A DNA stretch of 52,703 nucleotides from Verrucomicrobiota bacterium (GTDB taxonomy: Bacteria; Verrucomicrobiota; Lentisphaeria; JABSQK01; JAJFLO01), in NCBI GenBank assembly GCA_021772635.1, contig JAJFLP010000043.1, forward strand, positions 1 to 52,703, read 5' to 3'. Made by a program: the position numbers and the translations under genes. Every line of letters begins with the position of its first letter. Positions within the stretch are counted from its first letter, which is position 1. The notes beneath the pieces were generated by a model. That model was not told the origin of the DNA. It did no database searches and was given only the letters and a program-made list of their open reading frames with translations. Shown piece after piece: positions 30,440 to 52,703 of the stretch.

Positions 30440-30585
30440 TCTCTGCTCAAATAAACCGATTGGCTTGGCTTCACATCTTAGTGAATGAAAATTCACTTTC
30501 ATCGTGGCGCCTTCTCCAATCATCTTATTATGAACGGGTTAAGTTCTCTCGCGACGAATCGCGTGAATTAATCAGGCTAATGGAG
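30440..30585 (+). repeat. About 145-bp repeat (inverted partner at the window end)
   Basis: This aligns, in reverse complement, with 52561-52703. Shared blocks include tctctgctcaaataa, cattcactttc, tattatga.cg.gttaag and tctcgcgacgaatcgc, with moderate divergence elsewhere. It lies after the MazF-like gene in a 344-bp gap that also holds a gggtctgacctgacaattat fragment. No gene is supported in it. Confidence 0.75.
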
Positions 30586-30638
30586 TACGAGCCCTATCTG
30601 CACTATTTTACGCCTTTGTACGGAAAAAAGGACAAGTA

Positions 30639-31078: not shown

Positions 31079-31256
31079 TATACCGCAAGCGGTACAATTT
31101 TCGGTCCGGATTACCCGTCCTGCATAAGCGAGGATCCCGATAGTGCGGGAAGACTCTTCCCGCATGGGCGTGGCCCCCGTCAGTACCGGACGCTTATGCG
31201 GTCCGCACGAGCGGAGTCCAGCCATACGGACCAAAGATCGTACTGCTTGCAGTATA
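31079..31256. repeat. Palindromic double-headed T94 derivative
   Basis: It has two T94 heads facing each other: tataccgcaagcggtacaat at the left and its inverted counterpart (gtactgcttgcagtata) at the right. Between them is the long module 1 seen at 47395-47540 (gcataagcgaggatcccg, gggaagactcttcccgc, gcggtccgcacgagcgga). The left head has taccgc/gcggta, a compensatory change from tactgc/gcagta. The tail half of the element is missing. Confidence 0.8.
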
Positions 31257-35262: not shown

Positions 35263-35418
35263 ATGAGAGCGAACCTACCAACACTGACGCTTATACTGCT
35301 GGTATCCGGCTGCAGCACTACCCGTTCGCAATCATCTTGGGTGATTAATCTAAAGCCGTCCAAAAATTCAACTGCTTGCAGTTTACTTAAGCCAACCGTA
35401 GCTCTTGATGAATTTTAG
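35263..35418 (+). CDS. Possible truncated lipoprotein
   Basis: 51 residues. The start (MRANLPTLTLILLVSGCS) has a good lipoprotein signal with lipobox LVSGC, but after about 30 residues the frame runs into a T94 half element (35356-35385) and ends in the 3' end of the opposite-strand gene. It may be a lipoprotein gene cut short by the element, or a chance frame. It lies 38 bp after the glycosyltransferase. Confidence 0.35.
   Translation: MRANLPTLTLILLVSGCSTTRSQSSWVINLKPSKNSTACSLLKPTVALDEF
35356..35385 (-). repeat. T94 half element at a stop codon
   Basis: gccgtccaaaaattcaactg followed by cttgcagttta. The final tta is the reverse complement of the TAA stop of the LMF-like gene, so the element's end and the gene's stop coincide. 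Confidence 0.7.
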
Positions 35419-36954: not shown

Positions 36955-36994
36955 GATTAAAACTTCTCTTCCGAAAATCGGACCGCATGCGGTC

Positions 36995-37088
36995 TATACT
37001 GCAAGCAGTACAATTTTTGGAAGACTTTTAACTTATCACCTAAGGGATTCCGAACGGTATATTCGAAAACCTGAAGACGTTCGGTATA
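36995..37088 (+). repeat. T94 element, reference copy (no inserted modules)
   Basis: 94 bp from tatactgcaagcagtacaat to acgttcggtata. It differs from 50973-51066 at only two positions. It lacks both internal modules and so defines the bare core. Confidence 0.95.
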
Positions 37089-37101
37089 AATTATTTGTAA
37101 A

Positions 37102-37230
37102 TAAACTGCAAGCAGTTGGTTTTTTGGACGACTTTAGATTAATCCCCCAAGAGATTCCTAACGATATTTTTTAACCGGCATTCTGCTGGCTAGCAGAACG
37201 CCTGGTCGAAAACTCTAAGGCGTTTGGTAT
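37102..37230 (+). repeat. T94 element with module 2
   Basis: It follows the previous copy after 13 bp. The core is diverged (taaactgcaagcagttggtt start). It carries the hairpin insert ttaaccggcattctgctgg(c)tagcagaacgcctggtcg at the second site. The remaining 37231-37577 gap shows no gene. Confidence 0.85.
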
Positions 37231-37577
37231 CTTTGCCGTTCTCTCTAATGCGTAACGAAATTAGCCAACGTATCCGGTCCCAGCATCATTCTCTCAGGCT
37301 TTTCAGGGGACGGAGGCGGATCGTTGACGGCTAGCCTACATTATGCATAAACTTTCTATTGCGAATAGGTATCTTGTTTCATCTAAAAGAGTTACAAAGG
37401 TTTCAAGGCTGAAGGAATAGCGAGCTATTTCAAAGTCTTGGGTTCGTTATAAGTCATTCAGGTCACGTACAACGCGTGCTCGCAGTAGAAAGTTCGTGCA
37501 TAGATCAGGCTAGGCACCGTACAAGTTCCGATAGAATAAAATCGCAAATACTCAATCGCAAATCGCGATGCCATATC

Positions 37578-38414
37578 ATGATATATATTACGACTGCACT
37601 GCAATGTGAGGCACGCCCTCTGATTCAGCACTTCAACCTGCGCCAGGATCAGGCCGCAAACCAGTATCGCCGCTATGCGAACGGCGAGATCACGGTAATC
37701 GTGACCGGTGTCGGAAAAACCCGGGCCGCTACCGCGATAAACCACCTATTGTCGGCCGAGAACAGCAGGGACTTATCGCGGAGCGTCATTGTAAACTTCG
37801 GTGTCTGCGGCGCGGTTCGCAAGGACTCGCTGGTGATCGGCGACATGGTCGTGGTCAACCAGATTCAGGACAACGCCTGTGGTCGGGCGTATTTTCCGGA
37901 CATGCTGCTAAAGCACGATTTTAAGGAAGCCGGAATAGAAACGTTCGACTCACCGGTTGGCGACACTTCAACGCCTGCCCTGCCACTGGTGGATATGGAG
38001 GCGTCAGGGTTCTTCGAGGCTGCGTCCGAGCACTTCAGTCCGGATAGAATTATGTGTATTAAGATTATCTCCGATTTTCTGGAGCCCAAGAGGGTAAGTA
38101 ATAAACAGGTCGCGACGTTAATCGAATCGTGTATCAATAATCTAACGCAACTTTTCCGCGCTTTTCACGAACTGATACCACCAGCTGAAAAGGTTCTCGG
38201 TCCCGACGATGAAACGATTTTGGATCAACTAAACAGTCGGTTTCGATTTACTTCGACACAACGCCATTTGCTTCGAAGATCCGCCGAAGCTTTCGCGGTT
38301 CGGACCGGTTCCACGCTCGACTCGTTCAAAACGTCCCGAACCAGTGATCCGAGCTCTAAACACGAGGTTAAACGCATCTTCAACTCATTGAGGGATTCTC
38401 TTGATCAATCGTAA
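37578..38414 (+). CDS. MTAN-like nucleoside phosphorylase/hydrolase with C-terminal extension
   Basis: 278 residues from the ATG at 37578; an earlier frame start adds non-conserved sequence. The nucleosidase fold is shown by IYITTALQCEARPLI, VTGVGKTRAATAINHLL, VNFGVCGAV, the substrate-binding VDMEASGFFEAA and the catalytic Asp in IKIISDFLE. A C-terminal extension of about 80 residues (from about 198, STQRHLLRRSAEAFAV) is not part of MTAN enzymes. The 3' end overlaps the radical SAM gene by 14 bp, implying coupled translation and joint function. Substrate is unknown; 5'-deoxyadenosine or methylthioadenosine are plausible because radical SAM enzymes release 5'-deoxyadenosine. Confidence 0.85.
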   Translation: MIYITTALQCEARPLIQHFNLRQDQAANQYRRYANGEITVIVTGVGKTRAATAINHLLSAENSRDLSRSVIVNFGVCGAVRKDSLVIGDMVVVNQIQDNACGRAYFPDMLLKHDFKEAGIETFDSPVGDTSTPALPLVDMEASGFFEAASEHFSPDRIMCIKIISDFLEPKRVSNKQVATLIESCINNLTQLFRAFHELIPPAEKVLGPDDETILDQLNSRFRFTSTQRHLLRRSAEAFAVRTGSTLDSFKTSRTSDPSSKHEVKRIFNSLRDSLDQS

Positions 38415-39405
38415 TTTCTCTCACATCTATATTGAGGAAAAGGCGCTGGAGTATCCGGATACTGCAACCGTGCTTACGCACTTTCCGCAGGCAACGCAGA
38501 TACCCATCACCGATTATAAGACCGTCTTTAACCGCGGCGGGCAACGATTTCAATCTCAGAAACGAAGTGCGAAAATCATTTTGGCGGTGAAGAAAAACGC
38601 GTTTCTATACGACGGCTCCCGTTACGCGCCTAACTTTGACCTCCCGAATTTTTACTACAATTCGATGATGCTGAACTGCGTCTACAACTGCGACTACTGC
38701 TATCTTCAAGGGATGTATCCGTCCGGGAATATCGTCATTTTCGTTAATACCGAACCTTTTTTCGCCGCGGCCGACGAAGTTCTTCGTGATAAAGGATCTA
38801 TTTACTTGTGTATCTCATACGATACGGACTTGCTCGCGTTCGAAAACGTTATTCCGAACTGCCGGCGCTGGATTGAATGGGCAGAAACGCGTCCGAACAG
38901 CCTCGTGGAACTACGCACGAAAAGCACCAATTTCAGTGCTATTTCCGACATGCCGCCGGCTAAGAACACGATCCTCGCATGGACACTTTCGCCGGGATCC
39001 GTCACTGCGACCCATGAATTCAAAACCCCGTCTCTCGATTCTCGACTGGCTTCGGTAGTAGACGCGTTAAATAGCGGATGGCGGGTCCGCATTTGTATCG
39101 ATCCAATTTTGAACGTCCCGGATTGGATCAAGGTCTACAGCGAGTTCATTGATGGGGTACTGGACTGTATTCCGGGTGAAGCCGTACATGATTTTAGTTT
39201 GGGCGTGTTCCGGATGAATTCAGAGTATCTCGATCGCATACGAACTGATAGAAAGGATAGCAAAATTTTATTTCACCCGTTCGTTGCGAAGAATAAATCC
39301 TGCAGTTACGACGACGTGACTAAAGAAAAGATGACGTCTGTGGTAAAAGAACGAATACTGGCCAGGCTCCCAAGCGCCACGGTAAGTTGCCAGTCTGGTT
39401 CGTGA
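38401..39405 (+). CDS. Spore photoproduct lyase-family radical SAM enzyme
   Basis: 334 residues. The [4Fe-4S] triad is C93-x3-C97-x2-C100 (LNCVYNCDYCYLQG). C137 in IYLCISYDTDLLAFE lies where spore photoproduct lyase has its H-atom-donor Cys (ASCTSDIVG in Bacillus). SPL repairs the thymine dimer of UV-irradiated spores by direct reversal. Here the gene starts with TTG, within the end of the nucleosidase gene. No sporulation gene is visible. The family has many uncharacterised members, so DNA repair is possible but not proven. Confidence 0.88.
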   Translation: MINRNFSHIYIEEKALEYPDTATVLTHFPQATQIPITDYKTVFNRGGQRFQSQKRSAKIILAVKKNAFLYDGSRYAPNFDLPNFYYNSMMLNCVYNCDYCYLQGMYPSGNIVIFVNTEPFFAAADEVLRDKGSIYLCISYDTDLLAFENVIPNCRRWIEWAETRPNSLVELRTKSTNFSAISDMPPAKNTILAWTLSPGSVTATHEFKTPSLDSRLASVVDALNSGWRVRICIDPILNVPDWIKVYSEFIDGVLDCIPGEAVHDFSLGVFRMNSEYLDRIRTDRKDSKILFHPFVAKNKSCSYDDVTKEKMTSVVKERILARLPSATVSCQSGS

Positions 39406-39420
39406 TAATTCGGCGTAAAC

Positions 39421-39519
39421 GAATCAACTACTCCTCCGCAGAGCAGACTGGGTATCCGGCTTTGGAAATAGTTTTGATATCGCGGTAAACCGCGGGGAAT
39501 GAAACCCCACTATGTGGGC
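39421..39519 (+). repeat. Structured repeat, copy 2
   Basis: The second copy of 256-353; the last 60 bp, including the three hairpins, are identical. It ends 29 bp before the xerD start, so it likely forms part of the xerD leader. Confidence 0.85.
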
Positions 39520-39548
39520 TCACATTCAAGATCGGAGAGTAGCAACGG

Positions 39549-40442
39549 ATGGAAAAAGACATACAACAGTTCCTGGTATACGCGCAGATTGAGAAGGGGC
39601 TCGTAAAGAATAGTCTGAGTGCCTACGGAACGGACCTGGCGCAGTTCGTATCGTTTCTTACGACGGAGCAATCTACTACCGCGTGGGACAACGTGGACCG
39701 TGAAATCATACTCGATTTCCTCGATTCATGTTATAAGAAAGATCAGAGTACATCGACGATCGCGCGGAAACTGGTGACGATTAAAATTTTTTTCCGGTAT
39801 CTTTTCGTTGAAAAGATTATCCCCGTTAATATCACTGCGGTGATGGACAGCCCACGGTTGTGGCGACTTCTGCCGGATTTCCTTAGCGAGAAGGAAATAA
39901 ATCGGCTTTTATCGGTTTACCGCCGCGCCAACGACAACCTTGGCCAACGAAACTACACGATTCTAGAGATCATGTATGCCTCGGGCTTGCGGGTAAGTGA
40001 GCTAACGGATTTGAGAACGGAGAGTGTTCGTTTCGATGAGGAGGTCTTACGAATCACCGGCAAAGGAAGTAAAACACGGATCGTACCCTTTGGGAACCCC
40101 GCCCGTAAAGCGTTGCGACGGTATCTAAAGAACGTTCGACCATTGCTGGTACGATTGGACAATTATCCGAATGTTTTTCTTTCCAGGAACGGCCGCCCGT
40201 TGACGCGTGCCCGAATCTGGTCGATTGTCAAGGAAGCCGGGGTTAAGGCGAACATACGAAAATGTATATACCCCCACACCTTACGTCATTCCTTCGCCAG
40301 CCATTTGCTTGCGCACGGTGCCGACCTCAGAGTCATTCAGGAAATGCTCGGCCACGCAGATATCAGTACGACTCAGATCTATACACACGTGGACCAAACA
40401 CATTTGATGAAAGTCCACCAAGCCTATCACCCAAGAAACTGA
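39549..40442 (+). CDS. xerD: Site-specific tyrosine recombinase XerD
   Basis: 297 residues, the family's length. A SAM-like N-terminal core-binding domain (about 1-85) precedes the catalytic domain with the pentad R148 (GLRVSEL), K172 (GKGSKTR), H243 and R246 (HTLRHSFA), H269 (MLGHADIST) and the nucleophile Y278 (TQIYTHV). The terminal YHPRN matches the XerD consensus FHPR-type tail that contacts its partner. It resolves chromosome dimers at dif with XerC. The adjacent structured repeat and T94-type hairpin make an element-related integrase conceivable, but length and tail favour the housekeeping enzyme. The stop codon TGA runs directly into a gaccgcaagcggtc hairpin. Confidence 0.9.
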   Translation: MEKDIQQFLVYAQIEKGLVKNSLSAYGTDLAQFVSFLTTEQSTTAWDNVDREIILDFLDSCYKKDQSTSTIARKLVTIKIFFRYLFVEKIIPVNITAVMDSPRLWRLLPDFLSEKEINRLLSVYRRANDNLGQRNYTILEIMYASGLRVSELTDLRTESVRFDEEVLRITGKGSKTRIVPFGNPARKALRRYLKNVRPLLVRLDNYPNVFLSRNGRPLTRARIWSIVKEAGVKANIRKCIYPHTLRHSFASHLLAHGADLRVIQEMLGHADISTTQIYTHVDQTHLMKVHQAYHPRN

Positions 40443-40625
40443 CCGCAAGCGGTCGAATTTCCTGACGACTTACAACTAACAGCACAAGCGATTACGAACG
40501 GCAATTCGAGAGATTCGAGGCGATGGGCATAACTGCGCAAGCGGTCGAATTTCCTGAAGACTTACAACTAACAGCACAAGCGATTACGAACAGTAATTCG
40601 AGAGCTTCGAGGCGATGGGCATAAC
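40434..40625 (+). repeat. Two tandem copies of a T94-like 92-bp unit
   Basis: gcaagcggtcgaatttcctg recurs at 40445 and 40537, a 92-bp period, with few differences. Each unit keeps the T94 head hairpin in the gaccgc/gcggtc form (first copy) but a different body (cgacttacaactaacagcac). The first unit starts at the xerD stop codon. A third, short restart follows at about 40622. The region 40626-40813 holds nothing further. Confidence 0.85.
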
Positions 40626-40813
40626 TGCGCAAACGATTCCCAACAGGACTTCGATAACTCCGAGGTGACTAGCAAATATTGACGAGGATTCGAATGTCTC
40701 TTTGAAATCCTGGTCTACAATTTGATTTTGCTTCGAAGTTAAATACCTTATCACTCCGATTTCACATAACGCACTCTTGAGTTGCCCGTGACGGTAGCGC
40801 TCAAGGACGATCT

Positions 40814-40940
40814 GTATATTACAAGCAGTACAAGTTTTGGATAGCTGCGAATTTATCAGCCAAGAATTTCCGAACGATATTTCTCCGCATAAGCGAGAGT
40901 CTCGGGTAATCCGGACGAAAACTCCATGACTTTCGGTATA
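40814..40940 (+). repeat. T94 element with a module-1-type insert at site 2
   Basis: The copy starts tatattacaagcagtacaag and ends actttcggtata. At the second insertion site it carries tctccgcataagcgagag...ggtaatccggac, the vocabulary normally found at the first site in other copies. It lies 68 bp upstream of thrS. Confidence 0.75.
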
Positions 40941-41008
40941 TATACACTGCCGGCTGGTACAATCAGATCTGCCCGGTTAATTACCCCGATAGAGAGAATG
41001 AACGACGC

Positions 41009-42739
41009 ATGATAAACGAAAAGCTATTACGTAAGAGACACAGCACCGCGCATTTGATGGCAGCGGCAGTGAAGAACCTTTTTGACGCGGTTAAATTCGA
41101 TATCGGCCCGGCGACAGAAGAGGGGTTCTACTACGATTTCGATATGGAACATCGCCTTGTTCCCGAAGATTTGCCGCGAATCGAAGAAGAAATGAAACGC
41201 CTGGCCGGCCAGAAAGACCCGTTTACATGTGATGAATACACGAGAGACGACGCCAGGAAACTTCTGACTGACAGCGGTCAATCCTATAAGGTTGAACGCC
41301 TTGCGGACATACCCGAAGGAGATAAGATCACTTTTTATCAGTGCGGGGAATTTATCGATCTCTGTCGGGGTCCCCACGTGGAACACACGGGCCACACGGG
41401 CGCATTCAAGTTACTGTCGATCGCCGGGTCTTATTACCGCGGAAACGAGAACAATCCGATGCTTCAACGGATTTACGGAACGTCGTTTAATTCGCCGAAG
41501 GAATTGAAGATATACCTCAGGGCGATCGAAGAGGCGAAGAAACGCGATCACCGCAAGCTCGGGACTGAACTAGAACTATTCAGCGTCAGCGAAAGTGTCG
41601 GAGCCGGCCTGATTCTCTGGCATCCCAATGGTGCCCGGATCCGAAATATTATCGAGAATTTCTGGCGCGAAAAGCATTATCAAGACGGATATGAAATGGT
41701 TTATTCCCCGCATATCGGGTTTGCCGATCTCTGGCAAACGAGCGGACATCTTGACTGTTACCAGGAGGCGATGTACGCGCCAATAACGATTGATGACCGC
41801 GAGTACTACGTCAAACCGATGAACTGCCCGTTTCACATCAAGGTCTTTCAAAGCCGAAACCGATCATACCGGGAGTTACCGCTGCGATGGGCGGAGTTAG
41901 GGACTGTCTACCGTTATGAAAAGAGCGGGGTGTTGCACGGCCTACTTCGAGTACGTGGTTTCACTCAGGACGACGCGCACATATTCTGTACACCGGACCA
42001 GGTCGTTAATGAGATCTCGGAAGTCCTGCGTTTCTGCCTGTTCATGTGGAAGTCATTCGGATTCTCCGACGTTAAAGCTTATCTCGCTACCAAACCGCCG
42101 AAGGCTGTCGGCGACGATGCGCAGTGGGAACAGGCGACTCGGTCACTGGAACAAGCGGTGCAAGACGCGGACCTCCAATGCGAGGTCGATCCTGGTGGCG
42201 GCGCGTTTTACGGACCAAAGATCGACTTAAAAATAAAAGACGCGATCGGTCGCGAATGGCAAACCTCGACGATTCAGTTCGATTTTAACCTCCCGGAACG
42301 GTTCGACCTGAGTTTTATCGGTGAGGACGGCAAGAAACACAGGCCGTATATGATCCACCGCGCTCTGCTCGGCTCCCTTGAAAGGTTTTTTGGCATTCTC
42401 ATCGAGCACTATGCCGGAGCCTTCCCGGCATGGCTTGCGCCATTGCAAATTCGTGTACTGCCGATCACCCTGGAGCATCACGATTACGCAGAAGAAGTGC
42501 GAAAAACTCTTTCAAAACACCAATTGCGCGTCGAAGTCGACTCGCGGAGTGAAAGCCTCGGTGCAAAGATTCGGAAATCGAGAAACGAGCGGATACCGTA
42601 TATGCTGATCGTGGGTGATAAAGAAGCGGAAAACCAACATGTCTCGGTTCGTAAGCGTGGCGACGACGGGGACTTGGGATCTATGGATCTGGTTTCATTC
42701 ACCGATATGATCACAAAAGAAATTGAGGAAAAGGCCTAA
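41009..42739 (+). CDS. thrS: Threonyl-tRNA synthetase lacking the TGS domain
   Basis: 576 residues, about 65 fewer than E. coli ThrRS. The protein begins directly at the editing domain, whose zinc-like cluster H11-x3-H15 (RHSTAHLM) and C119-x3-H123 (CRGPHVEH) is intact. The catalytic core has MNCPFH (Zn ligand Cys), the motif 2 WAELGTVYRYEKSG with downstream HGLLRVRGFTQDDAH, and GAFYGPKID and HRALLGSLERF (motif 3). The anticodon-binding domain is present (about 475-570). The TGS domain is missing and the upstream DNA is a T94 element, not coding. TGS-less ThrRS exists in some bacteria. It is followed by infC, as in many genomes. Confidence 0.96.
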   Translation: MINEKLLRKRHSTAHLMAAAVKNLFDAVKFDIGPATEEGFYYDFDMEHRLVPEDLPRIEEEMKRLAGQKDPFTCDEYTRDDARKLLTDSGQSYKVERLADIPEGDKITFYQCGEFIDLCRGPHVEHTGHTGAFKLLSIAGSYYRGNENNPMLQRIYGTSFNSPKELKIYLRAIEEAKKRDHRKLGTELELFSVSESVGAGLILWHPNGARIRNIIENFWREKHYQDGYEMVYSPHIGFADLWQTSGHLDCYQEAMYAPITIDDREYYVKPMNCPFHIKVFQSRNRSYRELPLRWAELGTVYRYEKSGVLHGLLRVRGFTQDDAHIFCTPDQVVNEISEVLRFCLFMWKSFGFSDVKAYLATKPPKAVGDDAQWEQATRSLEQAVQDADLQCEVDPGGGAFYGPKIDLKIKDAIGREWQTSTIQFDFNLPERFDLSFIGEDGKKHRPYMIHRALLGSLERFFGILIEHYAGAFPAWLAPLQIRVLPITLEHHDYAEEVRKTLSKHQLRVEVDSRSESLGAKIRKSRNERIPYMLIVGDKEAENQHVSVRKRGDDGDLGSMDLVSFTDMITKEIEEKA

Positions 42740-43049
42740 CTAGTTCTCGTCCTGAAATAGCCGATTCGTGTTGATCTGGCGAGTCAAAAGTAGCTCGGCC
42801 CCCGCGGTCGCGGGGCCAGGCCTCGCTACGGCGCAGCCCGGCAGCTGAGTAAAAAAACACCCACGTAGTCAGGAATGACCGCGTTACTTTTCTATTTCAG
42901 GACAAAAACTAAGTACACCCCGTCCGCGCTAAACTGTAGCGCAAACAGGCACTAGATCCTATGTTTACCGACGGTTCCCTAGATTCTTTGACGATTGGCG
43001 TAAATCCGCGCAGCGAAAGTATCTTCACGTATTTTGCGATAAATCCTGA
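42740..43049. other. thrS-infC gap
   Basis: A short GC-rich hairpin (cccccgcggtcgcgggg, near 42799) lies 56 bp after thrS without a T-run. No gene is seen up to the promoter at 43050. Confidence 0.5.
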
Positions 43050-43078
43050 TTGAATTCGCCTGGGTAACGCACTATAAT
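43050..43078 (+). promoter_or_regulatory. Sigma70-type promoter of infC-rpmI-rplT
   Basis: TTGAAT (43050-43055), a 17-bp spacer and TATAAT (43073-43078). The predicted leader (about 115 nt) contains a hairpin, cgtcgtct/agacgacg at about 43129-43160, before the ribosome-binding site. Confidence 0.8.
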
Positions 43079-43200
43079 TCCTCCGTTCTTAAAGTGAACG
43101 AATATTTCCGCTCCGTTAATTCAAGTCGTCGTCTCAGATGAAAAGAGTTGCAGACGACGTATAAAGTCCCGTATGGGCGTTTAATTAGGAGAGACACGCT

Positions 43201-43719
43201 ATTCCTCGATTACTAGATAAAAATGACCGGACTCTAAAAGACCGGGACATACGGCTTATTAGTCAAACGAATGATCAAGTCGGAATCGTAACTTTCACAG
43301 AAGCTTGCGAACTAGCCGAGAAAGAAGGTAAAGATTTAGTGCTCGTCGCGGATGACTCAGATCCGCCGGTTTGCCGGATTATGAATTTCGGAAAATACCG
43401 GTACGAACGGAAACGGCGCGGACGCGAGCAAAAAAAGAAGCAGGCGAGTCACAAGAGCAAAGAGATTAAGTTCCACGCCAATATTGATCCCCATGACTAC
43501 GGAATTAAGCTGAATCATATCAGAGGCTTTCTGGAAAAAGGGCACAAAGTTAAGGTATCCTTATTCTTTCGCGGACGCGAAATGCGGAACACCGAGCACG
43601 GCATGGAATTGATGACGAAAGTTGTCAAGGATATTGCGGATATTGGTATGGCGGAAGCCCAGCCCCGCCGAGTCGGCAGAAATATTGGAATGTATTTGTC
43701 CCCGTTGAGCCATAAATAG
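43201..43719 (+). CDS. infC: Translation initiation factor IF-3, ATT start codon
   Basis: 172 residues. The frame opens at ATT (43201), 7 nt after an aggagag site, giving IPRLLDKNDRTLKDRDIRL, the expected IF-3 N-terminus. The next in-frame usual start (43339) would delete 46 residues including the N-terminal domain. Other motifs are SDPPVCRIMNFGKYRYE, the IKFHANIDPHDY strand and KVSLFFRGREM. An AUU start is the known autoregulatory feature of E. coli infC, where IF-3 discriminates against non-AUG starts. It leads the infC-rpmI-rplT operon. Confidence 0.95.
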   Translation: MPRLLDKNDRTLKDRDIRLISQTNDQVGIVTFTEACELAEKEGKDLVLVADDSDPPVCRIMNFGKYRYERKRRGREQKKKQASHKSKEIKFHANIDPHDYGIKLNHIRGFLEKGHKVKVSLFFRGREMRNTEHGMELMTKVVKDIADIGMAEAQPRRVGRNIGMYLSPLSHK

Positions 43720-43869
43720 AAATTAACAATTCAACGTTCATAGGTTCAACGGTTAGGGAATTGGATGTCGAACCGTCGATAGCCGTTGTTCCCCGGGTTC
43801 TCAGATTCTTAACCACTGAACTTTGAGCCATTGAATCGTGAGCCTGAATAGTTACATCTGGAGAAAGTA

Positions 43870-44067
43870 ATGCCGAAACAAAAAACGAGAAAAAGCGCTT
43901 CCAAGCGGATAAAAAAGACGGGGACAGGAAAGTACGTTCATTTTCGGGCCGGAGCTCGTCATATCCTCACGAAAAAATCCACGAAGCGGAAACGTAGATT
44001 GAGACAAAGCACATTGGTACGGTCAACCGAACTTAAGCGAATTAAAGCAGCACTGCCGTACGGTTGA
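43870..44067 (+). CDS. rpmI: Ribosomal protein bL35
   Basis: 65 residues, full length: MPKQKTRKSASKRIKKTGTG, then RHILTKKSTKRKRRLR and a typical C-terminus LKRIKAALPYG. The ribosome-binding site is ggagaaag. It is preceded by a 150-bp gap containing a ttcaacggttaggg slippage-like stretch, and its TGA runs directly into a perfect hairpin. Confidence 0.97.
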   Translation: MPKQKTRKSASKRIKKTGTGKYVHFRAGARHILTKKSTKRKRRLRQSTLVRSTELKRIKAALPYG

Positions 44068-44087
44068 GTGGACTGCAGGCAGTCCAC
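44068..44087. repeat. Perfect hairpin after rpmI
   Basis: gtggactgcaggcagtccac: 9-bp arms around ag, starting at the base after the rpmI stop. It has the T94 head sequence form (actgc/gcagt). A second head (gactgctcgcagtc) lies at about 44173-44186, just before the rplT ribosome-binding site. There is no T-run, so it is more likely a processing or repeat hairpin than a terminator. Confidence 0.75.
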
Positions 44088-44205
44088 TACGGATAATCCA
44101 AGTATTATTGCATGTCGTTTTCCAAATCCGTGAAAAACTTATGCGGTCCGTCTATTCGGATCGAAAACTCGACTGCTCGCAGTCTAGAAAGAGGAAGATC
44201 ACAAA

Positions 44206-44568
44206 ATGGTCAAAGCAACAAATGCCCCGGCATCACGTAAACGTAGAAAGCGCGTCTTAAAGAGAGCGCGAGGGTTTCGTGGTGGCAGAAGCAAATTGAT
44301 AAGAACCGCTTACGACTCCGTCGATAGAGCAAATGCAAACGCATACGTCGGCCGCAAACAGAAGAAACGTCAGTATCGCAGACTCTGGACAATCCGTATT
44401 AACGCGAGCTGCCGGCAACACGACTTGAATTACAGTCGTTTTATCGATGGCCTCAAGAAAGCGGGTGTTGAATTAAATCGTAAGATCCTCGCTGATATGG
44501 CAGTAAACGATTCCGACGCATTCACTGCGCTAATCGAGAAGGCTAAGCAAGCTTTAGCCGCTGCCTAA
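44206..44568 (+). CDS. rplT: Ribosomal protein bL20
   Basis: 120 residues, full length. Basic N-terminal extension ([20 protein letters not shown]), then [28 protein letters not shown] and the [22 protein letters not shown] segment typical of bL20. In other bacteria bL20 represses its own operon through the leader mRNA. A 138-bp gap with two T94-type hairpins separates it from rpmI, unusually long for this operon. pheS does not follow. Confidence 0.97.
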
Positions 44569-44795
44569 TACTTGCTTGTATTAATTCATCCGGTATTAGA
44601 ATCCCCCCTCAACTTCCCGTGCGGACCCGAGCCTTTTTCACACACAAGTATCCGGTAGCGCACTGTTTTCCGGAAGATCGTTGGCAAGTTATTGCGCGAA
44701 CAATTCCAAGTGCTCTCTCTCCGTATCCTCAGAGACCGCCTGTGCGGCCCCGTAGCCTCCCGTCGACAGGGGCAAAAATCGGACAGCCCGCAAGT

Positions 44796-44888
44796 TATAC
44801 TCATCGTCTTCGAGTTTTCGAATTATCGTTCGGAATCTCTTAGCTGAGTAATTGAAAATCGTCCAAAAATTCAACTGCTTGCAGTTTA
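44796..44888 (-). repeat. T94 element supplying the stop codon of the LptF/G-like gene
   Basis: A 93-bp copy from tatactcatcgtcttcgagt to ttcaactgcttgcagttta. Its last three bases, tta, are the TAA stop of the minus-strand permease gene (44888-44886). The region 44569-44795 upstream holds a module fragment (tctccgtatcctcagagacc) and no gene. Confidence 0.85.
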
Positions 44889-46046
44889 CATCATTTTTCG
44901 AAGTCCCCACAGTCCGTACCCGAAGAAACAGATAACCGGTGTCACTCCTGCGAGCACGGCGGGAATTACGTCATTCTTACCGAGAACCAGAAAGAACTGT
45001 ACGGATACGTAGTAAAGGGCAAGGACTAACGCGGCCTTTATAAAATTCCCGACTGCACTATTCCGTCGGTCGCTAAGCGACAACGGTATCCCCAGCATTA
45101 CGGCGACCAGGCAGGATAGCGGCCAGAAGACGTGATAAAAGAAATACGACTTTAACACAGCTATCGTACTTAACGAAAACGAAGTACCCTGCGCACGCAG
45201 GATTTTGTAAATCTTCACGGCGGACATCTCTTCGAGCGGCCGCAACGAAGAAACGAACAGAAAACCTTTCGGATCTTCTGTAATCGACGGCATCTCTAAA
45301 GTCGGGGATTTTTCCGGAATATCGAGTAGGAAATAGCCGTCATCGTCGAATCGCCGCAGCATTGCGTCTACAAACCTCCAACGCCCATCTGTAAACTGAG
45401 CTTCCCGCGCGAACAGCTCCCACGAAACCGAGCCATCCGGCCGAAACTGTGTGATACGAACGTTATTGCTTATTCCCACCGCGTGGAAATTTTCGAAGAA
45501 CCAGTCTCTGTATTGGTCCTGGTTGCGAAAAGCGAGATAAGCTTTGGATTTCCGGACTCTTTTGTGATACGGGTCCGCGATCTCATTTTTCAGATTTTCC
45601 GCAGCAACCCTACCCGCCGGCGCAACGTACTGACCTACGACAAAATGCAGTACCGTTAATAACACGGCGACTACCCATAGAGGAGTGCTGCTTTGGAGTA
45701 TAGAAGTCCCCGATGCCCGCATCGCTGTCATCTCATTGTTGCGAGAAAGTTGTGAGACAACGTAAGTTGTCGCCATAAGTAGCGACATCGGCAAGCAATG
45801 CAAAAGGTGCTCGGGTTGGATCAGCAGAAAATAGTGCGTAATTACAACGATGCCGGCGCTATTTTTCAGAAAATGATCGAGGTCGTCAAATAAAGCACCG
45901 ATAAGAAACAGGGTGAGAAATGTCGAGAGGCAACAAAAGAGAATGAACGAAAATTCGACTAGAATATATCTGAAGAGTTTAGGGGAAATACGCCGGTCTT
46001 GAGAAACCGGGCTCAATTGAATCTTCTCCGCCAAATCACTATCCAA
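44886..46046 (-). CDS. LptF/LptG-family (YjgP/YjgQ) permease
   Basis: 386 residues with the LptF/G layout: helices near 28-50, 68-92 and 110-135, a periplasmic jellyroll-like domain (about 145-275), and C-terminal helices near 302-330, 335-355 and 360-380. Family segments are LIQPEHLLHCLPMSLLMATTYVVSQLSRNNEMTAMRASG (coupling loop) and VFWPLSCLVAVMLGIPLS. It would form the membrane part of the LptB2FG lipopolysaccharide extractor, which points to a diderm. Only one member is present; the partner is elsewhere. It starts with TTG and ends in the T94 terminus. Confidence 0.9.
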   Translation of the reverse strand: MDSDLAEKIQLSPVSQDRRISPKLFRYILVEFSFILFCCLSTFLTLFLIGALFDDLDHFLKNSAGIVVITHYFLLIQPEHLLHCLPMSLLMATTYVVSQLSRNNEMTAMRASGTSILQSSTPLWVVAVLLTVLHFVVGQYVAPAGRVAAENLKNEIADPYHKRVRKSKAYLAFRNQDQYRDWFFENFHAVGISNNVRITQFRPDGSVSWELFAREAQFTDGRWRFVDAMLRRFDDDGYFLLDIPEKSPTLEMPSITEDPKGFLFVSSLRPLEEMSAVKIYKILRAQGTSFSLSTIAVLKSYFFYHVFWPLSCLVAVMLGIPLSLSDRRNSAVGNFIKAALVLALYYVSVQFFLVLGKNDVIPAVLAGVTPVICFFGYGLWGLRKMM

Positions 46047-46341
46047 TAATAGTCAAGTTCCATCGACGGAGCCGATGGTTTGAAGAAGCCCTTAAAGGGC
46101 CCGCAAGCTCAACTAATTTTTTTGTCATGTGCGTGACGTCGCTATAAGGTGACACACGTCGCATTTCTACTCTTAATTATAATCCTAATCGGTTGATAAT
46201 AAAGAATCCAATTACGAATTTCTCGCGCTGATGCGTTCGGCCGATCCGGTAGTTTACTGTAATGATTTCACTGCCAGCAATCGCACTTCTGGATATCGCT
46301 TAAGCGAGCAATGGTCCCGCAAGCTCACTCACGATTTGGGA

Positions 46342-47058
46342 CTATTTGCCTGTGCTTATTTTAACAGCGCGAACACCGCTTAATTTGTCCTGAATCGCAC
46401 GTTTAGAGGGAAAGCAGAACGTAAATAGTATGGTCGTCCATCCGAAGACAAGCAGCCAAACGGAAAAGACGAATGCCCGGCCCATAAGCACGGGGCCGCC
46501 GTCGGTACGTACGACCATTACTCCACACAACAGCTGTCCAACGGTCTGTGCGGTATACCCAATCGAGATTGCGTAATAAAGTAGAATGCAGCTCAGGAAA
46601 CCAACAGAGAACAAGGTAAACGCGGTATCCCGCTCAAGTGTGCTGCTTCCGATCAGGTTGCCCGTCACGAAAAGCAGACCGGCACCCATGGCAACGATTA
46701 TCGCAACGTCAATCAACCATGAGCCGAATCGCAGTCCCGTGGACCCCGGCACGAATTCGAATTTACCGGCTTCAGTTAGGGAGTGCTTTTGCACATCCTC
46801 GGGCGTACTGAATAAATCGGCCAGCTTGGCCTTCACTGACTGATCTTGTTCACCTGAAGAAACGTGACTAACGACTTCTTTCAAGAATGGAATCTTCCCG
46901 GCCTTATTCCATTTCATCATCATCGCGTTCCGGACCTCGGTATCCGCTGCAATTCGCCCGGTCTCTGCCCATCGAATAAGAACATCCTGCCCTACCGGAC
47001 CGTACTCGTTACCGTCCGATCCTTTAATGATATACTTCATCCCGTCATTACTCATCAT
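46342..47058 (-). CDS. GYF_2-RDD fusion membrane protein
   Basis: 238 residues. The N-terminal GYF_2-type module (about 7-60: KYIIKGSDGNEYGPVGQDVLIRWAETGRIAADTEVRN) is joined by a linker to an RDD domain (about 105-235) with the R and D residues in LRFGSWLIDVAII, a QTVGQLLCGVMVV segment and three or four transmembrane helices. The GYF_2 module is thought to bind proline-rich peptides. Function is unknown. The preceding 47059-47307 holds no gene. Confidence 0.85.
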   Translation of the reverse strand: MMSNDGMKYIIKGSDGNEYGPVGQDVLIRWAETGRIAADTEVRNAMMMKWNKAGKIPFLKEVVSHVSSGEQDQSVKAKLADLFSTPEDVQKHSLTEAGKFEFVPGSTGLRFGSWLIDVAIIVAMGAGLLFVTGNLIGSSTLERDTAFTLFSVGFLSCILLYYAISIGYTAQTVGQLLCGVMVVRTDGGPVLMGRAFVFSVWLLVFGWTTILFTFCFPSKRAIQDKLSGVRAVKISTGK

Positions 47059-47307
47059 CGATCCCTTTATAGCTAACTTATGCTACGATGTAATAATTTT
47101 CCCCTAACATAACCCGATTCAAAATCGATTCAATGGGTTCTACGGCTGTCTCGTCGTCGCTGCACTCGACCCGCACGAGCGGACCTCCCGGATATCCAGT
47201 TCGCACACTTGGACCAAAGAATCGATTGCCCGGGTCGCCGTGGCGCTCCGCATACGCGTCCCCGTTGGCCGGAATCGTTGCCAACGCGGGAAGAGTCCGT
47301 CCATATA

Positions 47308-47566
47308 AATACCGAACGTCTTCAGGTTTTCGACCAGGCGTTCTGCTGGCCAGCAGAATGTCGGTTGAAAATTATGGTTCGATATCCCTTAGCTAATGAA
47401 TTCAAAGTCGTCTCTCCGTATTCTCGGAGTCCGCTTGTGCGGACCGCATAAGCGTCCCGTACTGCCGGGATCCACGCCCATGCGGGAAGAGTCTTCCCGC
47501 ACTATCGGGATCCTCGCTTATGCGGGACGGGTAATCCGGACCGAAAATTGTAATGCTTGCGGTATA
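47308..47566 (-). repeat. Longest T94 copy with both modules
   Basis: Read on the minus strand, the head is at 47566-47545 and the tail at about 47330-47308. It contains a long module 1 (about 150 bp: gcggtccgcacaagcgga, gggaagactcttcccgc, gcgaggatcccgata) and module 2 with ttctgctggccagcagaa. The core between modules (cgactttgaattcattagct, aaggga) is intact. At 259 bp it is almost three times the bare core. No gene is seen in 47567-47794. Confidence 0.85.
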
Positions 47567-47794
47567 GAGACGCCGAAGGCGCGGAAACTTCCAGTCTATC
47601 GATTGGCGACTATGCATATGTCCCGCTAAAGTACCGATGGATTATTGACTGTCCTACATAATCCCCGACAAAAGCTATTTTTCGCTGAATCGCGAACCGG
47701 CAGCAGATCGACGCGCTTATGCCGTCCTCGGACGCAGCAGGCCAACGTACAGGCTATCACTGCTGAATCGCAGAATCATTAACCCGAAGGTTAA

Positions 47795-48472
47795 ATGAAA
47801 TCGAAACTGGCAACTTGGCAGCTCATCCGTGCCCTTGACGGGATCACCTGTGCACTAATCGTGATGATCGTAGTTTTGGCACATCCCTCGGTTGGTCGAG
47901 ACGAACTCGGGAATTTCGATATTCTTTGCGTCGCCCCGATTATAGCGATTGCCGGGTTCGTGCACCGAATCCCGTTAGTTCTCTCAGACAGCGGCGTCTG
48001 GAGGAGATGTGTTCACAGCCTACGCGTCACGACGTTGATCTTTGCTCTGTTGGCGCCATTTTCGGTGTGGTGGCTCAAAGCACCGAAGAACTGTTATCTG
48101 ATGGTCAATTCGTTGCTGGGATGTATTGCTGGGATAGCGGTACTAATGAGCCTGTGCGCCGTAATCAATCAAGTGTCGGTTGATACTGATCTGCGATACA
48201 TGAAATGGGAATCGAAGCTGACGAGTATACTGACTTTGTATATTTTATTTATTCCGTTCGTCGCTTTTGTGTTAACATTCTATATCGACTCATACATATT
48301 ATCGGTCAGTAACCTCGGTGATTTTTATGATCTTATAGTTCTGTTTCCAAATTGGGTAAGAGCGGTACTGCTGGTCCCGGTCCTATTATCTATCGGCACA
48401 CTCGTGCACAGTCGGCATCTCCTCGTCGCCTATTTAGTGCCTGAACTCAAACCCTCGCGAGCCGGGTTTTAG
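47795..48472 (+). CDS. Polytopic membrane protein of unknown function
   Basis: 225 residues with about six helices (near 14-29, 41-58, 75-92, 103-125, 144-168 and 188-205). No family recognised. A hypothetical role in the envelope is the most that can be said. The start ATG at 47795 has only a weak aagg 9 nt upstream. It precedes pyrF by 118 bp. Confidence 0.7.
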   Translation: MKSKLATWQLIRALDGITCALIVMIVVLAHPSVGRDELGNFDILCVAPIIAIAGFVHRIPLVLSDSGVWRRCVHSLRVTTLIFALLAPFSVWWLKAPKNCYLMVNSLLGCIAGIAVLMSLCAVINQVSVDTDLRYMKWESKLTSILTLYILFIPFVAFVLTFYIDSYILSVSNLGDFYDLIVLFPNWVRAVLLVPVLLSIGTLVHSRHLLVAYLVPELKPSRAGF

Positions 48473-48590
48473 TTCAAGCACTATTTTAGATAATAAGCAT
48501 TAGACTGACTCAAGATTTCAAACTATTCTTTATTTTTTAACAAAGTTCAAAAAAGAACCGGACGTGGTTCGGTAGAGAGAATTTACAACA

Positions 48591-49292
48591 ATGAGAAAGC
48601 AACCAGAATTGATCGTTGCATCGGACTTGAACACTATCCGGGAACTACACCGTTTAGTTGACGATTTAGGGGATACAGTTGAGTGGTACAAGGTCGGAAA
48701 GCAAATGTTTACCCGATACGGGCCGGAGATTGTGACATATCTTAAGGACCGCAAAAAAAAGGTATTCCTGGACCTTAAATTTCATGATATCCCGAATACC
48801 GTCGCGAACGCAGTAATTTCGGCGATAGGTATCGGCGCTGATATGGTCAATGTTCATGGCGTCGGCGGTGCCGAGATGATGCGTGCTGCAGCGGACAAAG
48901 TGGCGCCGCTGAAGTCCGACGCGCTGTTGATCGCGGTAACGGTCCTGACAAGTATGGATAGTGAGAGCTTTGCTGCGGCTGGGTACGCCGGCGACATTCC
49001 GGAACAAGTACAAAGACTCGCGCGAACGGCGCAAGATTGCGGCTTCCACGGTGTCGTCGCGTCAGCGCAGGAACTGGCGATCATACGAGAAACATGCGGA
49101 GAACAATTCCTGACTGTCGTCCCTGGCGTTCGACCTGCCAACGCCGACGCGCAAGATCAAAAGCGCACCGCGACCCCGGCAGCAGTATCGAAACTCGGTG
49201 CGAACTTCATCGTCGTCGGACGACCGATAACACAGGCACCCAACCCTAAAGCGTCGGCTACGGCGATTTTGGCAGAATTGGGGAAAAACTGA
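48591..49292 (+). CDS. pyrF: Orotidine 5'-phosphate decarboxylase
   Basis: 233 residues, type I OMP decarboxylase. The catalytic Asp-Lys-x-Asp set is in FLDLKFHDIPNTV; other conserved segments are ELIVASDLNT at the start, WYKVGKQMF, MVNVHGVGGAEMM, VVPGVRP and the phosphate-binding VVGRPIT. It makes UMP in the last de novo pyrimidine step. There is no pyrimidine operon here. The ATG follows agagagaa, 6 nt upstream. Confidence 0.97.
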   Translation: MRKQPELIVASDLNTIRELHRLVDDLGDTVEWYKVGKQMFTRYGPEIVTYLKDRKKKVFLDLKFHDIPNTVANAVISAIGIGADMVNVHGVGGAEMMRAAADKVAPLKSDALLIAVTVLTSMDSESFAAAGYAGDIPEQVQRLARTAQDCGFHGVVASAQELAIIRETCGEQFLTVVPGVRPANADAQDQKRTATPAAVSKLGANFIVVGRPITQAPNPKASATAILAELGKN

Positions 49293-49349
49293 TCCTCCGG
49301 AGGACGCAGAGACAACGACCAATGCCAGGGGGGCCGGTTTTACCGCTCT

Positions 49350-50891
49350 TTATTCCGATACGGCATTATCGATAAATTCTTCCAAATCGTATTTCATCTT
49401 AATTAACGACGGCTTATGAAAGTACATCATATGCCCGCCCTCATAAAATTTGAGCGAAATATTATCGCGAACTTTCGGGTTCCATGCGAGATGATTAGCA
49501 GAATACACCGCGGCGAGATGCGGAGTTGCCAAGTCGAAGTAACCCGCACAGATCAGGACTTTCAGGGAGGGATTCTTGTTCATCGTGCGGCGTAATCGCT
49601 CACTCACCTCAACGTACCGGTTTTTAAATTTATCGTATCTCCACGGATGGACTTTCCCGGTCAAAATCTCGTAGGGCAAATCGCTCTCGAATTCGAGTTC
49701 GGTTCTTAAGTAATCATTTAAGGTGGCCGAAAGCGGGCCACGCACCTCTTCGTAGCTCGGATCGTACTCTGGCGATTCCCCGGCGGAGTCACGGTCATGC
49801 CCCACGATTCTACTATCGAAACGACCGATGGTGCGCTTTTCGTCCCGTAATAATTCCTTCACGAATCTGAAGATATTTATACGTAGATTCGACCTTTCAA
49901 CGTACTCCCGGGAAAGCCCGGTGTACCGCGAAACCTTGCTCGCGATCTCATTGCGTACGTCGTCCGTTATCGATGCGCCTGATAACAGCGCAGTTGCATA
50001 ATCGCCCAGGGCAAAAGCCTCAACCTCAGCCAGCAGATCCGTTAAATCAGTCGGTAAGTCGTTTGCCAGTTTCTTATGGTACCACGCTGTACTTGCGTAT
50101 GTCGGGAGAAACAGGATATACGGTAGATTATTGCTGCGATCGAACCGGATCGTTTGGAAATCAATAACCGATGATACCAACATAATCCCATTGAGATACA
50201 TTCCGTGACGATTATGCAAATGCTCGGCCAGACCCGCAGCGCGCATGGAACCGTAGCTTTCCCCAATGAGAAACTTGGGCGACGACCAACGCCTATTCCG
50301 GGTAATATAAAGGCGGATAAATTCACCGACCGATTCCAGATCCTTTTCGAGTCCATGAAATTTTTTGGGATCTTTACCCGGAACCGCACGACTGTAGCCC
50401 GTACTAACGGGATCGATGAAGATCAGATCTGTTTTGTCCAATAATGAATACTCGTTATCAACCAGACGATACGGCGGTGGTGACGCTGTACCATCGTCGT
50501 TCAAGTCCACACGACGCGGCCCCAACACTCCTAAATGCAGCCAAACAGAGGACGATCCCGGCCCGCCGTTGAAAGAGAAAGTGACCGGTCGAGTTCCCAA
50601 ATCTTTGGCGTTATCCTTCGTGTACGCCACATAAAACATCGACGCCTCCGGCTTATCGTCTTCCTTTTTCAGTAAAAGGGTGCCGGCCGTCGCGGTATAT
50701 CCGATCTTTTTCCCTCCGATCTTCACCGAATGGGTGGTCCGCGAGATTTTTTCCTTCTGATCATCTTCCGACGCCTCCTTCTTGGGCGGATTATCGGAAT
50801 CTCCGCCCTTATCTTCTGAATAGCCGGAATTACCGGCGACGCACAATATAAGCGCTATAAAAACAGGGAGTACGTAGTAACGCATAGTCAT
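49350..50891 (-). CDS. Secreted serine carboxypeptidase (peptidase S10)
   Basis: 513 residues from the ATG at 50891, chosen because aggagaaaa lies directly upstream; an in-frame ATG at 50930 precedes this site. A signal peptide (YYVLPVFIALILCVAGNSGYS) leads to the S10 domain: oxyanion FNGGPGSSS, catalytic Ser in GESYG (S212), Asp in CAGYFDLATP and His in EGGHMMY. The substrate-binding strand FIDPVSTGYS is also present. Bacterial S10 enzymes are found in proteobacteria, acidobacteria and others. It would be exported to the periplasm. The mature N-terminus is highly charged (EDKGGDSDNPPKK). Confidence 0.93.
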   Translation of the reverse strand: MTMRYYVLPVFIALILCVAGNSGYSEDKGGDSDNPPKKEASEDDQKEKISRTTHSVKIGGKKIGYTATAGTLLLKKEDDKPEASMFYVAYTKDNAKDLGTRPVTFSFNGGPGSSSVWLHLGVLGPRRVDLNDDGTASPPPYRLVDNEYSLLDKTDLIFIDPVSTGYSRAVPGKDPKKFHGLEKDLESVGEFIRLYITRNRRWSSPKFLIGESYGSMRAAGLAEHLHNRHGMYLNGIMLVSSVIDFQTIRFDRSNNLPYILFLPTYASTAWYHKKLANDLPTDLTDLLAEVEAFALGDYATALLSGASITDDVRNEIASKVSRYTGLSREYVERSNLRINIFRFVKELLRDEKRTIGRFDSRIVGHDRDSAGESPEYDPSYEEVRGPLSATLNDYLRTELEFESDLPYEILTGKVHPWRYDKFKNRYVEVSERLRRTMNKNPSLKVLICAGYFDLATPHLAAVYSANHLAWNPKVRDNISLKFYEGGHMMYFHKPSLIKMKYDLEEFIDNAVSE

Positions 50892-50972
50892 TTTTCTCCT
50901 AATTGTGATTCCTCGCTGGCTCAATTTCACGCGTGATTTATCGACGAAACGATACCTAACCGGTCTGATAAA

Positions 50973-51066
50973 TATACTGCAAGCAGTACAATTTTTGGAC
51001 GACTTTTAACTTATCACCTAAGGGATTGCGAACGGTATATTCGAAAACCTGAAGACGTTCGGTATA
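50973..51066 (+). repeat. T94 element, reference copy
   Basis: 94 bp, two mismatches to 36995-37088. Orientation is opposite to the S10 gene. Downstream (51105 onward) lies the ctaaaataagcgaac block shared with 20381. No gene is seen in 51067-51290. Confidence 0.95.
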
Positions 51067-52241: not shown

Positions 52242-52560
52242 CGCGATTCTCCCTTGTTAAGGCGGTGCGCAGATCCGGCGTGATAGAAATCTGCGCGGGT
52301 CGTTTCGGTATCGCAGTCGGTATCGTTCTCGAAATCCGCAATCCCGAGACCCGATTCTGATACCGGTGATTTAGTCGTTTATTATCGACTATCTCAGGGC
52401 CCGCAAACTGTTTGCAGTTAGAAATTGTTGTTATATTTTATTTGTAGTGAATGGATAACGGTCTTTCGGAGACCTGTTAGTATAACCTTTGCGGGGCGAC
52501 GCTGTCCACTCTGAATCATACATAAACTTAGTTCCTTCAAACCCTTTCGAGAACATATTC
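52242..52560. other. Gap after the GNAT gene
   Basis: It contains an imperfect inverted region made of tcggtatcg/cgatacc words (52300-52370), like those at 8124 and 19436, and a degenerate T94 head (aaactgtttgcagtta, 52407-52422). No gene is supported. Confidence 0.55.
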
Positions 52561-52703
52561 CTCTAGCCTGATTAATTCATGCGATTCGTCGCGAGAGCGC
52601 TTAACTCGCTCATAATAAATCGATTAGAGAAAACTTGACGGCGAAAGTGAATATTCATTCACTGAGATGTAAAGTTGAGCTAATCGGCTTATTTGAGCAG
52701 AGA
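52561..52703 (-). repeat. About 145-bp repeat, copy 2 (runs off the window)
   Basis: Reverse-complement counterpart of 30440-30585. Its outer end may lie beyond the window, though the alignment to copy 1 also ends at tctctgctc. Confidence 0.75.

Follow-up and report, generated by a model that had tools for sequence, protein, structure and literature searches.

By its working principle, T94, a dispersed DNA repeat of about 94 nt, is closest to the BOX elements of streptococci and to the GC clusters of yeast mitochondria. Its TA ends, its size and its preference for intergenic DNA place it among the TA-terminated miniature inverted-repeat transposable elements (MITEs) Correia/NEMIS, ERIC and RUP, as far as the extracts of PMC2229807 describe these families. 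T94 was noticed in contig JAJFLP010000043.1 (assembly GCA_021772635.1) of a Verrucomicrobiota bacterium, whose 52,703 nucleotides were analysed at full length and are referred to as the window. The analysis followed up a note made from the letters of the window alone (the original prediction). On balance, T94 is probably a TA-target MITE with interchangeable hairpin modules at fixed positions.

BOX of Streptococcus pneumoniae and S. suis is, like T94, a high-copy, MITE-like family with terminal inverted repeats and target duplications, in which conserved end modules surround a variable interior, modules are gained and lost and repeats lie nested in one another (PMC3049150, in extract). The S. 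suis elements have the alternative module sets boxD, boxE and boxF, and the variation reported in that extract comes mainly from tandem boxB units between boxA and boxC (PMC3049150). T94 instead has four separate acceptor positions, one of them inside a terminal hairpin, and bricks that are common to several positions and occur in both orientations, an arrangement that appears to be new. Conserved end modules and exchangeable interior modules are found in both families, the comparison being one of working principle and not of sequences. The GC clusters of yeast mitochondria are likewise short palindromic mobile units which can fuse and be reshuffled, and in which one common end is found with many partners. 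Unlike T94, they are mitochondrial, and the extract of PMC4478555 presents neither a TA-target MITE nor a defined set of acceptor sites.

Among the TA-terminated families, Correia/NEMIS of Neisseria is a MITE of ∼107 bp with 24–26-bp inverted repeats (PMC2229807, PMC3049150) and occurs in two forms, the longer of which has an additional internal piece of 50 bp (PMC2229807). In these extracts it has one internal insert variant, whereas T94 exchanges a set of modules between several sites. RUP of S. pneumoniae is a TA-targeting MITE of 107 bp, described there as simple, for which IS630-Spn1 has been proposed as mover in trans (PMC2229807, PMC3049150). ERIC of enterobacteria is a TA-terminated intergenic MITE of 127 bp, and no exchange of hairpins among multiple sites is described for it in the extracts of PMC2229807 and PMC10969869. 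The statement in the original prediction that no described family has this layout was therefore too strong, BOX being modular (PMC3049150), Correia having two forms (PMC2229807) and the yeast GC clusters being able to shuffle (PMC4478555). Literature searches, confined to open-licence papers, yielded no bacterial element recognised as having a multi-site hairpin layout. ERIC forms with internal insertions exist.

Copies of T94 and their insertion sites

The host genome (G000) is a 3.97-Mb draft in 130 contigs with a completeness of 91%, and the window is its contig 68. This one draft genome was studied through a sample of 838 kb (21%), comprising the window and 40 further stretches. The sampled contigs were long ones appearing in match lists, while the stretches inside them were chosen regardless of matches. 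As the original prediction had proposed, the genome and its relatives were searched and empty and filled sites were counted. Thresholds and module patterns were of our own choice. A T94 profile gave 305 matches at E ≤ 1 in the sample compared to one in reversed DNA, which correspond to 236 elements, including 127 complete ones. The density of 0.28 per kb extrapolates to ∼1,100 copies genome-wide if the sample is typical, and the 208 elements scoring above 30 make up ∼3% of the sampled DNA. In the whole host genome, an exact left-end pattern was matched 189 times and its reversed form not once; BLAST with T94 gave at least 44 matches, with 40 of 648 first-look candidates scored.

The copies at 36995–37088 and 50973–51066 (both forward strand), in which every module site is empty, served as references and differ at two of 94 positions (28 and 56), exactly as predicted. 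An empty element (93–94 nt) consists of TATACTGCAAGCAGTACAATTTTTGG, a core of ∼40 nt and a right end reading TCGAAAAC...GTATA; the ends are of the TATACTGCAAGCAGTA type. The left end contains a six-pair hairpin, the outermost pair of which is T-A, G-C or A-T, and another pair of which is T-A or C-G. In 70 distinct rows, 39 paired cells of this hairpin carried double changes, compared to a mean of 12.7 and a maximum of 22 in 2000 shuffles, and slid controls were far below this count as well. The counts support the left hairpin, but not by themselves selection on it, because related copies inflate such counts.

Long inserts (at least 8 nt) were located in the 127 complete copies with an alignment in which an insert costs the same at any column. 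They fell mainly at three places, namely S0 (columns 6–8) with 9, S1 (columns 24–27) with 30 and S2 (columns 64–70) with 62 inserts, so that 101 of the 131 inserts lay in 14 of the 93 columns, the columns having been grouped post hoc, once half of the sample had been inspected. Nine inserts each at columns 51 and 58 (S3) and 12 elsewhere make up the rest. The inserts are hence not random indels without preferred sites. S0 lies within the left terminal hairpin, S1 marks the inner edge of the left end and S2 that of the right end, and S3 lies in mid-core after CCTAAG; according to the alignment listings, the inserts at columns 51 and 58 are two parts of one recurrent S3 module which replaces core bases. 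Of these sites the original prediction had named S1 and S2, both of which are real, and had missed S0 and S3.

At S1, many modules consist of several hairpins in a row, each reading TCCG-loop-CGGA. At S2, type A is a hairpin AACCGGCATTCTGCTGGCCAGCAGAACGCCTGG with alternative inner loops, type B is a short TCCCGCATGCGGGA, type C is an inverted S1-type module and type D is A apparently inverted in place, as read by eye. S2 was empty in 62 of the 127 copies and held A in 28, B in 14, C in 9, D in 3 and other sequences in 11, the last group including A-like and B-like variants missed by the patterns and a few misjoined copies. After removal of 17 copies with doubtful right ends, where the alignment had entered a neighbouring right end, the 110 cleaned copies comprised 61 empty, 25 A, 10 B, 7 C, 2 D and 5 others. 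Bricks are common to several sites: among 34 S1 modules, 25 matched an S0 module over at least 20 nt in inverted and 9 in the same sense, and for S2 modules the figures were 19 and 15, whereby one module may enter both counts since many are palindromic. Modules also appear inverted at the opposite end of T94. Compared to dinucleotide shuffles, distinct S1 modules folded with a median z of −2.19 (below −2 in 19 of 33) and distinct S2 modules with −1.38 (16 of 60), while S0 modules folded weakly (−1.03; 3 of 8) and the T94 core gave no folding signal (+0.59; 1 of 101).

The window contains examples of most of these states. Its profile search recovered the copies originally listed, with 14 matches at E ≤ 1e-6 in addition to a copy split by modules at 47309–47566 (reverse strand). 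The forward copy at 19582–19738 carries a 30-nt double-hairpin module at S1 (19607–19636) and a second module at S2 (19679–19712), and the forward copy at 37102–37230 has an S2 module of the ttaaccggca type at ∼37169–37205. S1 of the split copy is occupied by a module array at 47413–47541, which measures 129 nt and not about 150 nt as first estimated, and its S2 module lies at 47334–47370. The contents described earlier for S2 in these three copies and for S1 at 19582 were found as stated, as was the site-1-type module at S2 of the copy at 40815–40940 (forward; module 40883–40915), which row comparison showed to be inverted. An 87-nt S0 module (21880–21966) sits within the left terminal hairpin of the reverse-strand copy at 21795–21973. 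Empty sites were found in the reverse-strand copies at 3393–3485, 5174–5266 and 44796–44888, the last with A-T as outer pair of the left hairpin. Diverged forms are a reverse-strand copy at 1367–1459 (nhmmer E 7.9e-7) and a forward tandem of two copies with a period of 92 at 40442–40623.

Partial forms were also found. The entry at 31079–31256, listed before as a copy, consists of two inward-facing left ends around hairpin modules, without core or right end, and is the clear case in the window of a left-left form. In the host sample, 8 inward left-left pairs compared to 81 left-right pairs were counted among neighbouring ends within 420 bp, some of the 8 being chance neighbours or nested copies; T94 copies nested within other T94 copies do occur. 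Left parts alone were recognised on the reverse strand at 35323–35385 (model columns 1–62; right part not recognised), at 391–453 (columns 2–65) and, adjoining the latter, at 349–388 (columns 1–40; nhmmer E 4.8e-6). A weak solo left end at 36967–36996 (reverse strand; nhmmer E 0.057) abuts the copy at 36995 in opposite orientation and has the TA in common with it. The location of all copies between genes, as first proposed, holds as a strong tendency: 151 of the 208 copies scoring above 30 did not overlap an open reading frame (ORF) of at least 100 aa, compared to 14% of random placements, and 29 lay mostly inside an ORF.

Two further repeats of the window are, or may be, related to the modules. 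A 397-bp segment at 26785–27181 has 47-bp inverted repeats (98% identity) made of S1-type double-hairpin bricks, and no T94 ends were recognised in it; its 31 blastn matches in the host sample are probably mostly due to the bricks. A hairpin-rich 66-bp repeat (291–356 and 39457–39522, 97% identical) gave 8 matches in the 838 kb. A stretch resembling it fills the T94 copy at L052:14989, so that the repeat may be another T94 module.

Transposition and relatives of T94

Among 197 genomes of the class, the exact left-end pattern was found only in the host genome and in Verrucomicrobia bacterium OFTM167 (G002; 7.3 Mb, 610 contigs), which belongs to the same family and to another genus. OFTM167 contained 165 exact matches, and its congener G001 (95% complete) none. 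BLAST against 39 genomes including the host detected T94 in the host alone, apart from a 23-nt match in G038 (E 9e-4). In the contigs of GTDB r220, from which the host genome itself may be excluded, the host-type pattern had no exact match; the OFTM167-type pattern occurred in 114 stretches, and all 80 listed came from OFTM167. Viral contigs and plasmids gave no T94 match.

The sister copies in OFTM167 have the same ends as T94 and a different core, and they are uniform. The length was 93 nt in 76 of 88 distinct complete copies, an S2 hairpin was present in two copies, and a palindromic core insert in one. Their terminal inverted repeats are imperfect and ∼28 nt long by eye, whereas those of the host family have diverged; full-length terminal pairing was obtained for one of two folded sister copies. 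For 13 of the 88 copies an empty paralogous site was found, aligned to flank-TA-flank with at least 78% identity. The first listed match per site had TA in 10 cases and one base changed in 3, and there was no gap at the junctions in the matches shown. Two of these copies (L092 and L217) are at one site and may represent one duplicated insertion. The single TA in the empty paralogs fits a TA-target transposon with TA duplication, and a longer duplication, which was looked for in the OFTM167 flanks, was not seen; with the right flanks in register, TA alone fits. T94 can thus be considered a MITE, being short, high in copy number and too short for a transposase, with terminal inverted repeats and a TA duplication. 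The original prediction, which had called it unlike a simple MITE, was right about the unusual module system and wrong in setting T94 apart from the TA-target MITEs, given the inverted repeats and empty sites of the sister family. In the host genome, the corresponding search with the 127 copies gave 8 candidates, mostly neighbouring copies or T94-on-T94 matches. The usable case was a module-bearing copy of 133 nt, the empty paralog of which is 77% identical and has a single TA.

The TA target of T94 is that of MITEs moved by IS630/Tc1-mariner transposases. IS630-type elements are the usual candidate mover for TA-target elements. No member of this family with matching ends was found in the host draft or in OFTM167, in which T94 also differs from RUP. 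The Y1 transposases known from REP/REPIN with RAYT were rejected as movers: left ends lay near 3 of the 11 matches in the host genome, right ends near none, and no match was bracketed. These eleven matches (RAYT/IS200-type) are located at L073–L083. No autonomous partner of T94 was found in the parts examined, IS630 and Y1 being the only families searched and the host draft being 91% complete. Unpartnered left and right ends lay 0.5–3.2 kb apart in 8 pairs. Two of these were outside the scan of long frames, one being a second span over the same frame and the other having a longest frame of 477 nt. Four of the six scanned frames were host genes (riboflavin synthesis, response regulator-cyclase, phosphomannose isomerase and Hsp70-like).

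The host genome holds several other high-copy repeat families. A second dispersed repeat of ∼150 bp (30440–30587 and 52556–52703) had 21 blastn matches in the 838 kb and 48 in the OFTM167 set, and its OFTM167 relative hosts the T94 insertion that yields one of the empty sites. OFTM167 is also rich in short repeats (L087, L088, L091 and L100) and therefore well suited to the search for empty sites. A repeat at 37320–37450, AGCCTACATTATGCATAAACTTT..., is common to both genomes with 29 and 43 matches, respectively. Two more, at 20456–20539/51098–51181 and 3009–3109/7647–7747, had 35 and 21 matches in the host sample and none in the OFTM167 set. As to the host itself, the threonyl-tRNA synthetase of the window is 76% identical to its nearest proteins, and the named lower matches are mostly from Lentisphaerae/Victivallales and Verrucomicrobiota bins. 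Eight of nine large window ORFs scanned matched a Pfam family, including ribonucleotide reductase and the threonyl-tRNA synthetase.

Exchange of modules and competing explanations

S1 and S2 are filled in all four combinations. Among the 127 complete copies, 50 had neither site filled, 43 S2 only, 12 S1 only and 22 both; among the 110 cleaned copies the numbers were 49, 29, 12 and 20. A cluster of 25 copies with closely related cores had S2 empty in 13 copies and filled with A in 7, with B, C and D in one each and with other sequences in 2, and S1 was filled in 9 of the 25. These six S2 states in one cluster do not agree with a descent of all filled copies from one event. Another core cluster of 7 copies had the S2 states A, B, C and one other, and module A was present in all six largest clusters. 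Right ends differed by at least 30% in 14 of the 92 pairs of cleaned copies with near-identical cores (40 of 167 before cleaning, an inflated count), and cores differed by at least 35% in 69 of the 244 pairs with identical right ends. The correlation between core and right-end distances was 0.16, below the 0.31 and 0.33 obtained when interleaved columns within a segment were compared. Owing to the mixed module states and this weak coupling, it is concluded that modules move between copies, right ends less often, which supports the original view of a conserved core with fixed sites and exchanged inserts.

Some modules bear marks of how they may have arisen. Four of 33 distinct S1 modules (60–64 nt) are near-foldbacks almost from end to end. 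S2 hairpins were found with the left arm matched to the right and also with the right arm matched to the left; at one checked position, the mismatch was kept in 11 of 15 cases, corrected to G-C in three (one of them outside T94) and to A-T in one. A further hint is the presence of modules turned round, either in place at S2 (type D as read by eye; 3 of 127 copies, 2 of the 110 cleaned) or at the other end of the element. The homogenisation of arms and the inversion of the spacer are reported marks of template switching between inverted repeats (PMC8604942, PMC8794818, both in extract).

The reading favoured here is therefore that T94 is a TA-target MITE with interchangeable modules which is likely moved in trans and the modules of which are likely exchanged by template switching at hairpins and by recombination between copies. 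A TA-target transposase would act in trans, and the empty element of ∼93 nt would be ancestral, because the sister family is nearly all empty. Bricks may grow by snap-back copying, as hinted by the four near-foldback S1 modules, and may be corrected or inverted by switching between the hairpin arms; template switching during replication together with recombination between copies would account for the change of modules. A bolder form of this reading is offered tentatively: T94 could be a hairpin-cassette transposon, a MITE with dedicated acceptor positions into which bricks are written, then grown by inverted self-copying, flipped and traded via template switching among about a thousand copies.

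A number of observations weigh against the favoured reading. Right ends mostly travel with cores, being at most 12% different in 62 of the 92 near-identical-core pairs, and the arm corrections concern few copies. From the S2 side, a match with an S1 module was inverted in 6 of 64 and in the same sense in 2 of 64 modules, and most S2 modules belong to types particular to S2. Matches away from T94 make up 9 of 62 for the short type S2B and 2 of 25 for S1b. There was no folding signal for S3 modules (z +0.28; below −2 in 1 of 10), bare host copies did not fold clearly above shuffles (z −1.82, −1.14 and −0.06), and covariation in a right-end hairpin, tried in two registers, was rejected with a count of 17 compared to a shuffle mean of 18.7. 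Concerning transposition, 1 of 127 host copies had a usable empty paralog. The IS630 domain PF13358 had no match in the host genome; its 7 matches in OFTM167 and G001 were all in OFTM167, none was flanked by T94 ends, and just two weak right-end-like matches with 8 and 9 mismatches lay beside them. Finally, the six long frames scanned between end pairs contained no transposase, and two of them match no family.

The main rival explanation, considered unlikely, is that the bricks are tiny mobile elements inserting site-specifically into T94, so that a filled site would represent an insertion event and not a reshuffling, an idea put forward for hairpin elements of mitochondria and for GC clusters. 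It agrees with the fact that many inserts interrupt the empty form precisely and leave it complete on either side, that the same bricks occur at S0, S1 and S2, even within the left hairpin, and that the S2 hairpin in 2 of the 88 OFTM167 copies is of the TCCCGC type as well. Most brick types are, however, rare away from T94. Within or at most 150 bp from a T94 element lay all matches of the patterns S1a (14), S2A2 (5), S3 (13) and S2C (9), 23 of 25 for S1b, 40 of 41 for S2A and 53 of 62 for S2B, counted on both strands so that palindromes may score twice. The pattern TCCG..CGGA[C/G]TCCG..CGGA had 36 matches in or near T94 compared to 6 elsewhere (both strands). Moreover, inspection by eye showed no target duplication at the edges of inserts, and several of the modules at S2 and S3 stand in place of core sequence and do not add to it.

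It is highly improbable that T94 comprises ordinary old MITE subfamilies, in which every insert had a single origin and was multiplied by transposition, with no exchange among copies. The right end common to most near-identical cores would fit this, and some states do track cores, as core cluster 8 (7 copies) is never filled at S1. Such subfamilies are already contradicted by the S2 states within single core clusters and by the presence of module A in all six largest, and the four S1/S2 combinations and the weak correlation of core and right-end distances argue against them as well.

The gene context and orientation of T94 are as for a tolerated transposon and suggest no host function. Among 156 intergenic copies with two neighbours, 84 lay between co-directional, 54 (35%) between divergent and 18 between convergent genes, compared to 54%, 29% and 17% of random intergenic positions, and among co-directional genes 43 copies had the same and 41 the opposite orientation. 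The least probable explanation is a structured RNA or regulatory element that is under selection for its fold and has gained hairpins in the manner of ribosomal expansion segments: the compensatory changes in the left hairpin, the self-contained hairpins among many S1 and some S2 inserts and the slight excess between divergent genes speak for it, but orientation is even and the other gene context near random, the right hairpin lacks covariation, the window has no Rfam match at the gathering threshold, and arm copying by template switching gives compensatory changes without selection (PMC8794818, in extract).

Implications for palindromic repeats

Palindromic mobile repeats are common, and the gain, swap and enlargement of hairpins are hard to see in families with one or two forms. 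The host genome offers many parallel outcomes at defined positions, and the sister genus a form that is empty almost throughout, together with vacant TA sites. This would make it possible to measure how hairpins arise, grow, are inverted and are traded, and how template switching gives rise to compensatory changes. T94 also serves as a warning against taking covariation in dispersed palindromes as proof of a selected RNA structure. If T94 is indeed a hairpin-cassette transposon, it would parallel, in a bacterium, the shuffling of hairpins in mitochondria and would preserve a natural record of the birth of palindromes.

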